The notes beneath the pieces were generated by a model. It did no database searches, had not been told where the DNA came from, and worked only from the letters and a program-made list of their open reading frames with translations. This document shows, one piece after another, positions 50,454 through 53,746 of a stretch of DNA of 64,000 nt. The DNA is from Marinicella sediminis (GTDB lineage: Bacteria > Pseudomonadota > Gammaproteobacteria > Xanthomonadales > Marinicellaceae): contig NZ_MVBD01000006.1 of assembly GCF_002000055.1 (NCBI RefSeq), forward strand, positions 62,001 through 126,000, given 5' to 3'. Positions within the stretch are counted from its first letter, which is position 1; every line of letters starts with the position of its first letter. A program made the position numbers and the translations under genes.

Positions 50454-51241
50454 TGCAACTGGATCTCACCGGTAAAACTGCCTGGGTCTGTGGATCAACC
50501 CAGGGTATGGGTCTGGCGATTGCCAGACAATTGGCAGAACAAGGCGCCGAGGTGGTGCTGCTTGCCCGCAATGCGGCAAAACTCAATGAATTGGTTGCTA
50601 CCCTGTCTGTGCAGGCGGCGCAAAATCATCGGGTCATTGTGGCTGATTTTTCCGCACCTGATGGGCTGAAATCAGCAGTTGAACAACACCTCAAAATATA
50701 CCCTGAAGTCAACATCCTGGTGAACAACACCGGCGGACCGCCGCCGGGGCTGGCCAAAGACGCTGAACCGGAAGGCTTTCAGGCTGCTTTCAATCAACAC
50801 CTGATCTGCAACCAGGTTCTGGCTCAGGCTGTGATTCCGGCGATGCAACGGGCCGCTTACGGGCGCATCATCAATGTCATCTCAACGTCAGTCAAACAAC
50901 CATTACCCAATCTGGGCGTTTCCAATACCATTCGTGGTGCGGTCGCCAGTTGGGCCAAAACACTGGCCAATGAGCTGGGACAATACAACATCACGGTCAA
51001 CAATGTATTGCCTGGTGCCACAGAAACCAATCGCTTATCAACGATTTTTGACAACAAGGCGAAAAAAACCGGGACTCCTGTAGAGGCAGTCATTGAGCAT
51101 GAGAAATCAATCATACCCATGCGCCGCTTTGGAACGCCTGAAGAATTTGCCAATGTGGTCGGTTTTCTGGCATCACCAGCTGCAGCATATGTAAATGGCA
51201 CCAACATACCGGTTGATGGCGGCCGCACAGCATGTCTCTGA
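50453..51241 (+). CDS. SDR-family protein lacking the YxxxK catalytic pair
   Basis: A 262-residue short-chain dehydrogenase/reductase: NAD(P)-binding AWVCGSTQGMGLAIA (residues 10-24), the NNTGG-type VNNTGGPPPG and the C-terminal GxxV-like FLASPAAAYVNGTNIPVDGG. In the active-site helix the usual YxxxK is replaced: STSVKQPLPNLGVSNTIRG has Ser and Arg at the Tyr and Lys positions, as in a divergent SDR subset. It may use a different chemistry, or bind rather than reduce. It overlaps the downstream aldehyde dehydrogenase by 10 bases, so the two act together. In other bacteria such a pair accompanies tryptophan or aromatic catabolism (from memory). Confidence 0.92.
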   Translation: MQLDLTGKTAWVCGSTQGMGLAIARQLAEQGAEVVLLARNAAKLNELVATLSVQAAQNHRVIVADFSAPDGLKSAVEQHLKIYPEVNILVNNTGGPPPGLAKDAEPEGFQAAFNQHLICNQVLAQAVIPAMQRAAYGRIINVISTSVKQPLPNLGVSNTIRGAVASWAKTLANELGQYNITVNNVLPGATETNRLSTIFDNKAKKTGTPVEAVIEHEKSIIPMRRFGTPEEFANVVGFLASPAAAYVNGTNIPVDGGRTACL

Positions 51242-52686
51242 TTGTCATACACAATTACATCAATGGTGAATTGCTCCCACCGGCAGATGGTGAGTACCTG
51301 GATACTTATGAGCCTGCCACCGGACAGGTCTATGCCCGCACCCCTGAATCAGGAGCAGCTGACTTACAAACAGCCATAGACGCTGCTCAGGCGGCTTTTC
51401 CTGGCTGGGCCCAAATGCCTGGTGAACACAAAAGCCAGTGCCTGATCCGCCTGGCCGATTTAATTGAAGCCAACCATGACCAGTTAGCAGAGGCCGAAGC
51501 CAGAGACAACGGCAAGCCGGTCACCCTGGCACGAAATGTGGATATTTACCGAGCAGCCGCCAACATCCGATTTTTTGCCCAGGGCCTGACCCAATTCAGC
51601 AGTGAATCACATGGTATGGAAAACCGTGCCATCAACTTCACCTTACGTGACCCGTTGGGCGTGGTGGCTTGTATTTCTCCCTGGAACCTGCCGTTGTACC
51701 TGTTCACTTGGAAAATAGCCCCGGCACTGGCCATGGGTAACACCGTAATCGCAAAACCTTCAGAAATCACCCCCATGACTGCCTGGTTATTTTCCAGGTT
51801 GTGTATCGAAGCTGGCTTGCCAGCGGGGGTACTGAACATCTTACATGGGTCCGGGCCGGCCATCGGCGGTCCCCTGACCACTCACCCTGCCATCAAGGCG
51901 ATCAGTTTCACCGGCGGCTCAGCCACCGGCACCCTGATCAAACAAGCCACGGCCCATCAGCACAAAAAACTGTCTCTTGAACTGGGCGGCAAAAATCCAA
52001 CACTGGTGTTTGCCGACTGTGACTTTGACCGTACAGTAGAACAAGTGGCCAGGTCTGCTTTTGCCAACCAGGGGCAAATTTGCCTGTGTGGATCACGCAT
52101 ATACATTGAACGTTCAATCTACGACCGTTTTGTAGACGCCCTGACCGAACAGGTCAAACAACTGAAAATCGGCGATCCACTGGACCCACAAACTCAATTT
52201 GGCGCTCTGGTCTCAGAAGACCACATGAGAAAAGTGCTGGGTTACATCGATCTGGCCAGGCAGGAAGGCGGAACCGTGTTGACCGGTGGAAAACAAATCA
52301 GACTGGAAGGTCGTTGTGCCGATGGCTATTTCGTGGCTCCCACCATCATCGCCGGACTGAGTAACCAATGCCGTACCAACCAGGAGGAAATATTTGGGCC
52401 GGTATGTACAGTTCAGGCCTTTGACAACGATGATGAAGCCTTGCTGATGGCCAATGATTCCGACTATGGACTGGCCTGCAGTCTGTGGAGTCGTGACATC
52501 AACCGCTGTCACCGCCTCGCTCAGCAAATCAACACCGGTATTGTGTGGATCAATTGTTGGTTGCTGCGGGATTTACGAACTCCGTTTGGAGGAATGAAAG
52601 CTTCAGGCTCTGGTCGGGAAGGCGGATTGGAGGCCATGCGGTTTTTTACCGAAGCCAAAAATGTCTGCATCCAATACAACGACTGA
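51232..52686 (+). CDS. Aldehyde dehydrogenase (muconic-semialdehyde-type)
   Basis: A 484-residue NAD(P)+-dependent aldehyde dehydrogenase with ISPWNLPLYLFTWKIAPAL, KPSEITPMTAW, SFTGGSATG, the general base Glu in LSLELGGKNPTLVF, the catalytic Cys284 in NQGQICLCGSRI and EIFGPVCTV. The C-terminal LLRDLRTPFGGMKASGSGREGG is typical of 2-hydroxymuconic and 2-aminomuconic semialdehyde dehydrogenases, which would link it to the kynurenine pathway genes at 13-15.7 kb. That link is inference from sequence class, not shown here. It starts inside the end of the SDR gene. Confidence 0.92.
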   Translation: MSLIVIHNYINGELLPPADGEYLDTYEPATGQVYARTPESGAADLQTAIDAAQAAFPGWAQMPGEHKSQCLIRLADLIEANHDQLAEAEARDNGKPVTLARNVDIYRAAANIRFFAQGLTQFSSESHGMENRAINFTLRDPLGVVACISPWNLPLYLFTWKIAPALAMGNTVIAKPSEITPMTAWLFSRLCIEAGLPAGVLNILHGSGPAIGGPLTTHPAIKAISFTGGSATGTLIKQATAHQHKKLSLELGGKNPTLVFADCDFDRTVEQVARSAFANQGQICLCGSRIYIERSIYDRFVDALTEQVKQLKIGDPLDPQTQFGALVSEDHMRKVLGYIDLARQEGGTVLTGGKQIRLEGRCADGYFVAPTIIAGLSNQCRTNQEEIFGPVCTVQAFDNDDEALLMANDSDYGLACSLWSRDINRCHRLAQQINTGIVWINCWLLRDLRTPFGGMKASGSGREGGLEAMRFFTEAKNVCIQYND

Positions 52687-52834
52687 GCGGCCTGTTGACT
52701 TTTTTTGTAAGGATTTCGTTAACCAGAGGTCTGTTCATATGAATACCCGGCTTACAAAGGGACTTATGGCACATTCTTACCCTGTCTGGCCTGGTTAATA
52801 TATCAATACGCACTGAAGATTATTTATTTAGTAA

Positions 52835-52863
52835 TTGACGTACGTAAGACTTAGTAGTATAGT
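52835..52863 (+). promoter_or_regulatory. Strong sigma-70-type promoter
   Basis: TTGACG (52835-52840), a 17-base spacer and TATAGT (52858-52863); each hexamer is one mismatch from consensus. Transcription would begin near 52870. No good protein-coding gene starts downstream until 53246. Confidence 0.72.
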
Positions 52864-52869
52864 TATTGC

Positions 52870-52985
52870 ATCACACATTGATTCATCTGACAAAGACGTA
52901 AAATGTGGCAAGCTTTGGAGTTACAGAAATTCCTCCCCTAACGCTTTTTAACTCTCTGATTTCTGTAACTCCACCCTCTTTTAGA
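52870..52985 (+). ncRNA. Candidate small RNA with C/U-rich anti-Shine-Dalgarno-like loop
   Basis: The predicted transcript is about 115 bases. It contains a perfect 14-bp stem, GGAGTTACAGAAAT (52917-52930) with ATTTCTGTAACTCC (52959-52972), closing a 28-base loop that includes TCCTCCCC (52931-52938) and a CTTTTT run. The stem is followed by ACCCTCTTTT, a modest terminator tail. CCTCCCC can pair with AGGAGG-type ribosome sites, as in several known C-rich-loop sRNAs. It could alternatively be the untranslated leader of the gene at 53246, or an old insertion palindrome. No Rfam family recognised. Confidence 0.5.
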
Positions 52986-53245
52986 ATCTGACCTGATTGT
53001 CATGAGGGAATGCAGCCTTGTGAAACCAAGGCGCACCATGCTTTTTTATTATAATTATGATGACGATCGCTTCAATCACTCGAAGCTCAATGTCATGGGC
53101 TGTGACAAACAAAAAACTGCGGGTCTCCTCTTTTTTATTTTCTCACCCTGCGAATGCAAGTCACAACCGTCCTTGTGCTTTTCATTATATACTGAAAAAG
53201 GCATAATACCTCAACCTGTTTTTTAACTTTTTTCTAACACAATCC

Positions 53246-53746
53246 ATGTTTACCAACTCCGAAGATATTCGTATAGACCTGGTCGAAGTCGCTGATGCCA
53301 GCCCCATGGCAGGCACTTTGTTCAAAAGGTCGTTTCACGCTGAGATTCCTGATTTTCCCAAGCATTTTGTGCTGTTGGCTGCTGACCCGACTGGCCGTTT
53401 ACTGACGCTGGGCTATGTTCATTTCACCAAAGAGCAGAACATGTACCTTGGTGGCGGTATGTGCGTCAATCTACGTGGCCTCAAACAACTACCCAAACCC
53501 TGGCGTGATCAGCTGAATATTCAGGGTGGGGTGGCTTTCACCATGTTGTCCGAAGCCGTCAAACAACTCAATGATTGTGATGCGGTGTTTGGCTATGTGG
53601 GGCATAAAGGGGCTTATAAAATAGACCTGGCTGTGGGCTTCGAGCAGACCCAATATCAACACCTGATTGTGTACTGGAAAAAACCGCTGGATCAGCAACA
53701 ACAACACAACATCATTCAACAGGCACACCAATTCGGACCTTTTTGA
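53246..53746 (+). CDS. Conserved-looking hypothetical protein
   Basis: A 166-residue soluble protein with no signal peptide. The sequence suggests an alpha/beta domain similar in pattern to a degenerate GNAT fold (LLTLGYVHFTKEQNMYLGGGMCVNLRGL, then FTMLSEAVKQLNDCDAVFGYVGHKGAYKIDLAVGF and LIVYWKKPL), but the acetyl-CoA R/QxxGxG loop is not clear. It lies 52 bases upstream of the glutathione reductase gene on the same strand and may be co-transcribed. There is no ribosome site of note before the ATG. Function unknown. Confidence 0.8.
   Translation: MFTNSEDIRIDLVEVADASPMAGTLFKRSFHAEIPDFPKHFVLLAADPTGRLLTLGYVHFTKEQNMYLGGGMCVNLRGLKQLPKPWRDQLNIQGGVAFTMLSEAVKQLNDCDAVFGYVGHKGAYKIDLAVGFEQTQYQHLIVYWKKPLDQQQQHNIIQQAHQFGPF

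Follow-up and report, generated by a model that had tools for sequence, protein, structure and literature searches.

The 559 bases between an aldehyde dehydrogenase gene and a gene encoding an uncharacterised protein in Marinicella sediminis contain a promoter-like sequence followed by a long hairpin with a C-rich loop. This arrangement raises the question of whether the gap encodes an independently transcribed small RNA, terminates the transcript of the upstream gene, or forms the leader of the downstream gene. The window, that is, the whole stretch of 64,000 nucleotides that was analysed, was compared with the corresponding regions of related genomes, and the following features were recognised.

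51232..52686, + strand: aldehyde dehydrogenase gene, upstream neighbour (PF00171, E = 4e-169)
52768..52816, + strand: putative upstream element P1, GGCACATT followed about 19 nt on by TTAATATA, recognised by conservation
52835..52863, + strand: predicted promoter P2, TTGACG-N17-TATAGT, recognised by its hexamers and by conservation in 11 of 12 species
52870..52982, + strand: proposed small RNA of about 113 nt, both ends predicted from promoter and fold
52874..52907, + strand: 5' hairpin SL1, CACATT...AATGTG, conserved in pairing but not in sequence
52908..52915, + strand: single-stranded spacer (G)CAAGCTT(T), its AAGC present in nearly all of the 12 species
52916..52973, + strand: main hairpin SL2, a 15-bp stem with a 28-nt loop, near-invariant in 12 species and with compensatory changes when four short-loop homologues are included
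52931..52958, + strand: SL2 loop TCCTCCCCTAACGCTTTTTAACTCTCTG, 28 nt, opening with TCCTCCCC, about 91% identity across 12 species
52974..52982, + strand: pyrimidine tail CCCTCTTTT, a weak terminator-like tract, recognised by conservation
53011..53047, + strand: second hairpin, GCCTTG...CAAGGC, with T6 behind it, conserved in 10 of 12 species
53164..53245, + strand: predicted promoter block P3 together with the short 53246 leader, with TTTTCA-N17-CATAAT at 53179-53207, kept in 10 of 12 species
53246..53746, + strand: gene for an uncharacterised 166-aa protein, downstream neighbour, GNAT-like fold predicted

The hairpin and the promoter-like sequence in the window

The gap extends from 52687 to 53245, in agreement with the gene desert of 559 bases named in the preliminary description, and the main stem begins 230 nt past the dehydrogenase stop codon. 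In this stem, TGGAGTTACAGAAAT (52916-52930) pairs with ATTTCTGTAACTCCA (52959-52973), forming 15 Watson-Crick pairs plus one U.G pair; the preliminary description was right in calling the stem perfect but gave its length as 14 bp, which is too short. The TTGACG-N17-TATAGT sequence, the 28-base loop, and the weak T-run that it had listed were all found, the last as CCCTCTTTT, located 5 nt away from the stem. SL2 is the sole perfect inverted repeat of at least 14 bp with a short loop in the window (first-order Markov copies contained three perfect inverted repeats of at least 14 bp in 60 windows), and it is also the longest stem followed by a T-run. The region 52870-52990 folds with a minimum free energy of -27.5 kcal/mol (z = -4.2, none of 200 shuffled sequences being as low), and the CCTCCCC of the loop is unpaired in the window RNA with a probability above 0.9.

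The -35 hexamer of P2 (TTGACG, 52835-52840) and its -10 hexamer (TATAGT, 52858-52863), separated by a spacer of 17 nt, match the consensus at 10 of 12 positions, and the predicted transcript probably starts at about 52870, some 7 nt past the -10 box. Four promoter-like sites were found in the 1.3 kb searched versus 2.0 expected, and the P2 hexamers alone are not significant. Because hexamers of this quality are near chance when taken alone, the case for an RNA rests on comparison. At its other end, the RNA would stop in the weak U tract after SL2, at a length of about 113 nt; the favoured range is about 113-145 nt. A tail resembling A(C)CCTCTTTT is present in most species, including the short-loop homologues described below, and the T-run is poor or absent in G007 and G008; the position of the 3' end is uncertain because the T-run is weak and is absent in these two species.

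A search of the whole window against Rfam at the gathering threshold matched only a tRNA, and at E <= 5 the sRNA region yielded one spurious snoRNA match only; no family fits. A phage origin was dropped, as no exact match was found among viral contigs, and a dispersed repeat or mobile element was dropped because the element occurs in one copy per genome across the genus. The genome encodes Hfq. The protein encoded by gene 53246 had no match in Pfam or NCBIfam, and the best PDB matches of its AlphaFold model (pLDDT 86) were GNAT acetyltransferases, with weak TM values of about 0.4-0.56.

Conservation among related species

The intergenic region aligns in 12 of 41 genomes, all belonging to one genus and counting the genome of the window itself. 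A covariance model detected a single SL2 stem-loop in each of 12 genomes out of the 18 of the genus (82-106 bits) and, in a search of 299 genomes of the order, nothing comparable outside the genus; two incomplete genomes, G006 and G016, were left out of the reading of presence and absence. As far as tested, the RNA gene appears to be confined to one species group within the genus. On every contig that includes both flanks, the RNA is placed between the aldehyde dehydrogenase gene and the 53246 homologue, and all three share one strand.

Across the 12 species, mean identity is 0.94 for the SL2 hairpin and 0.91 for its loop, whereas the fourfold-degenerate sites of the neighbouring dehydrogenase gene are saturated, with a mean identity of 0.34, and the dehydrogenase proteins share about 71-80% identity with that of the window. 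Changes in the SL2 stem within this group keep the pairing (one A-U to G-C, several to G.U), the sole exception being the outermost pair in G014, and they indicate that the + strand is the RNA, because the G.U pairs would be A.C mismatches on the opposite strand. CCTCCCC is kept in 10 of the 12 species and reads TCTCCCC in G013 and CCTCCC in G011; conservation covers the entire loop, AACTCTC included, and not this motif alone. Both signs that the preliminary description had proposed to look for by a covariance search in relatives, compensation in the stem and a conserved CCTCCCC, were accordingly found.

In 11 of the 12 species, TTGACG is retained together with the 17-nt spacer (G011 has lost P2), and the -10 hexamer is TATAGT in seven species and TATATT, TATAAT, TAATAT or TAGTAT in one each. 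Sigma-70 promoters tolerate change at the -10 positions that vary here. This pattern suggests that P2 is an active promoter belonging to the RNA itself. The palindrome ACGTACGT, which overlaps the -35 box and is kept in 10 of the 12 species, is a possible operator. Further upstream, P1, with GGCACAT or CACAT at near-constant spacing in all 12 species, is possibly an activator site or a second promoter. The conserved blocks upstream of P2, between 52707 and 52816, comprise TTTGTAAGNATTTCGTTAA, then the two P1 motifs GGCACATT and TTAATATA, and ATACGTACTGA.

The stretch from the predicted start to the AAGC linker varies between 33 and 69 nt and cannot be aligned between species, yet an SL1 hairpin forms in all 10 species with P2 and sufficient sequence (G014 was left out of the folding set, its leader being too short to fold). 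In most species, about 5-6 nt separate the predicted start from SL1, and 2 nt separate SL1 from the linker. Compared with dinucleotide shuffles, its z-scores range from -0.9 to -4.1 in the ten species, and the combined value of about -8.3, calculated as sum/sqrt(10), ignores the relatedness of the species. When the arms were swapped between species, with one of two near-identical species dropped, 16 of 20,000 permutations paired as well as the species' own arms. The position of SL1 is tied to the predicted start and therefore lends independent support to transcription starting there.

Judged by the conservation of structure, strand, promoter, and loop, the locus is a conserved, structured RNA gene, and its RNA is very probably transcribed independently of the neighbouring genes. 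Independent transcription had been proposed in the preliminary description, and both the conserved promoter and the covarying SL1 near the predicted start support it.

Relation to the neighbouring genes

In four related species (G001, G002, G009 and G012), a related hairpin with a loop of 4-15 nt stands right behind the dehydrogenase stop codon, as exemplified by TGGCATTACAGCAATTTTCCTCAAAAACTGCTGTAATGCCAACCTCTTTTTTT in G009. The covariance model missed these hairpins or scored them weakly, and they were spotted by reading the DNA. Their arms and tail align with SL2 of the window, and they carry an A-rich 5' flank and a CCTCTTTTT tail. When the four were added to the SL2 arm alignment, 97% of the cells were paired, six pairs were doubly changed, and none of 500 shuffles was as good; the arms had been put in register by hand, so that the value of 97% leans towards structure, and slid controls gave 30-51%. 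The four species form a single clade in a midpoint-rooted tree of the dehydrogenase (support 100/100), in which G019, a member of a neighbouring genus without a hairpin at this place, groups with G011 and G014.

SL2 was probably derived from the intrinsic terminator that ended transcription of the dehydrogenase gene. In the simplest history, the ancestral state would have been a terminator directly behind the dehydrogenase gene, the arrangement still seen in the sister clade. In the lineage of the 12 species, promoter DNA would have come between the stop codon and the hairpin, and the loop would then have lengthened to its C-rich form of 28 nt and become frozen. We infer the direction of change, from terminator to sRNA, and the reverse history, with a loss in the four short-loop species, is possible, given the midpoint rooting of the tree and the placement of G019. 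The chances are about even that this is a lineage-specific sRNA family with a readable birth, in which a terminator gained a promoter and a C-rich loop, the loop came to be among the most constrained sequences at the locus, and the sister clade keeps the plain terminator. A literature search on sRNAs originating from terminators found nothing, and the sister-clade hairpins would provide a rare before-and-after view of an sRNA gene arising from a terminator.

The placement of the short-loop hairpins right behind the stop codon, their flank and tail, and the rank of SL2 as the longest stem-plus-T-run in the window would also fit a simpler account, in which SL2 is the transcription terminator of the dehydrogenase operon and has no other function. 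We consider this very unlikely. A terminator can do without a conserved 28-nt loop, whereas this loop keeps 91% identity in species whose fourfold sites are saturated; the conserved P2 and the covarying SL1 stand between the stop codon and the stem; and in the window, the stem is 230 nt away from that stop codon.

The preliminary description had also left open a role as leader of gene 53246. The P2 transcript would then continue into a 53246-gor unit, and the hairpin would act in cis as an attenuator or as a sensor of a protein or ligand. The RNA indeed precedes the 53246 homologue and is read in the same direction, its T-run is weak, and the distance from the stem to the ATG is only 39 nt in G011 and 66 nt in G014, which makes read-through possible in these two species. 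Against this, the distance ranges from 39 to 272 nt among the species, and in G014 a promoter-like sequence was seen by eye in the stretch from the stem to the ATG. The remaining ten species have the second hairpin, further conserved blocks, and the separate block P3 in between, and the conservation of P3 suggests that 53246 is probably independent of P2. In addition, the start of 53246 is not preceded by a Shine-Dalgarno sequence in the window or in the species viewed, its complementarity to the loop amounts to only -0.6 kcal/mol, and the stem of the short-loop clade adjoins the upstream gene instead. A leader role is thus unlikely, and the specific idea of a cis-acting anti-Shine-Dalgarno element on 53246 was dropped, there being no such site to sequester and no loop pairing.

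The second hairpin has changes on both sides in two of eight pairs, its covariation term is not favourable, and its T-run starts at 53042; it is possibly a back-up terminator. A further conserved block at 53090-53145, TCAATGTCATGGG...GAGCCTCCTCTTATTATTTT, is found in 10 species and holds a second anti-Shine-Dalgarno-like motif, CCTCCTC; it may represent a further regulatory element or RNA, and its place is taken by TTCAATGTCGAAACTTATTGATGCCACAAGCCCC in the short-loop clade. In one member of that clade, G012 (locus L081), the 53246 homologue gave no tblastn match, yet one can still recognise its upstream promoter block and where the reading frame started, which marks it as a decayed gene.

Proposed action and comparison with known small RNAs

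The reading we favour, and consider reasonably probable, is an independently transcribed two-hairpin sRNA that starts at P2, acts through its CCUCCCC loop on G-rich ribosome sites, and owes SL2 to a terminator. P2 would initiate the RNA at about 52870, and the transcript would consist of SL1, in which the pairing is fixed and the sequence is free, the conserved linker, and the long stem presenting the 28-nt loop. The unpaired CCUCCCC would repress the translation of trans-encoded mRNAs by pairing with their G-rich ribosome-binding sites. An anti-Shine-Dalgarno function is plausible, and by analogy with sX13 and NmsR, discussed below, the RNA is likely to act in trans on G-rich ribosome sites. 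The loop resembles the ribosome's own anti-Shine-Dalgarno tail, which makes the question of targets directly testable. Since a literature search found no sRNA described for this lineage, the RNA would represent a new sRNA family there, and the evidence on structure, strand, and promoter warrants naming it.

Possible targets were searched for in 9-12 genomes as GGGGAGG or the 8-mer AGGGGAGG before ATG; for G005, three of its sites were included. The ribosome-site pattern with GGGGAGG had 4-13 matches per genome, many of which are not gene starts, and AGGGGAGG is rare before ATG. The few gene starts found with either motif, named by eye, include an rplV-like gene in G007, a response regulator in G014, and others. 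No orthologous gene recurred among those with GGGGAGG 3-9 nt before ATG in nine genomes. This result argues against a large conserved regulon recognised through an extended seed, although the 7-mer search is insensitive. The strict test is weak because sX13, an RNA of Xanthomonas, needs only about four G residues (PMC3771888).

The conservation of the whole loop leaves room for what may be protein binding or a second seed. If the stem and loop were a site for a protein, such as a ProQ- or Hfq-like chaperone or a translational repressor, and held no antisense seed, both the near-invariance of the stem and of the loop beyond CCTCCCC in 12 species and the lack of a recurrent target with the strict seed would be accounted for. 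This explanation is quite unlikely, as the unpaired CCTCCCC matches an established antisense mode, and the target test that found nothing recurrent used a 7-mer, whereas sX13-like RNAs need about 4 G (PMC3771888).

Among described RNAs, sX13 comes from the same order. It is family-restricted and highly conserved, folds into three stem-loops, and is located beside or downstream of polA; its exposed loops carry CCCC, and it has been shown experimentally to repress mRNAs with G-rich motifs (PMC3771888). The favoured sRNA is likewise a conserved, strongly structured, and lineage-restricted intergenic RNA with CCCC in an exposed loop, but it has two hairpins, lies between the aldehyde dehydrogenase gene and 53246 instead of by polA, and has no Rfam match. 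NmsRA and NmsRB of Neisseria meningitidis are two siblings with three stem-loops, a UC-rich anti-Shine-Dalgarno loop, and promoters of their own, and for them, too, action of the loop on G-rich sites has experimental support (PMC5362039). The RNA described here shares with them the C-rich anti-Shine-Dalgarno-like hairpin loop and a predicted -35/-10 promoter of its own, and it differs in its single copy, its much longer loop, and the lack of an Rfam match at E <= 5.

The cuckoo RNAs, or alpha-r14 (NfeR1), of the Alphaproteobacteria have three hairpins with an anti-Shine-Dalgarno motif in each and often occur in several copies (PMC7143759). An unpaired motif of this kind in a hairpin loop and a stem varying freely in sequence, here SL1, are common to both. 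In contrast to the cuckoo RNAs, the present RNA belongs to the Lysobacterales and combines two hairpins, one C-rich loop, a near-invariant main stem, and a single copy. The preliminary description had named the cuckoo RNAs as a comparison only; membership in that family is not supported, given the two hairpins, the one C-rich loop, and the lack of a related Rfam match. With intrinsic terminators and 3'UTR-derived sRNAs, the RNA has in common that SL2 has its homologue, in four related species, in the apparent terminator of the dehydrogenase gene, and it is set apart from them by its own predicted promoter, its 5' hairpin, and its near-invariant long loop in the 12 species.

Other hairpins of the group were noticed during the comparison. 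Of 14 arm bases, 13 are common to SL2 and a palindromic repeat of a neighbouring genus (GGAGTTAAAGAAAT). That repeat is a separate palindrome, about 100 nt long and present in multiple copies, and the likeness is probably due to chance. In neighbouring genus g3 (loci L036, L037, L210-L214, L224 and L225), a dispersed palindrome of about 100 nt, CAGGAGTTAAAGAAATCCCCAT...ATGGGGATTTCTTTAACTCC, is present in several copies in some genomes and is MITE-like. A near-perfect fold-back of more than 60 bp at a contig end (L051, G048:C55:8823-8892) is probably an assembly or amplification artefact. A hairpin similar to SL2, GAGTTTCAGGTTG...CAATCTGAAACTCCCCACCCTTTT (L052, G011:C101:13668-13727), is a probable terminator, and the CCACCC-T tail may be a terminator habit of the genus.
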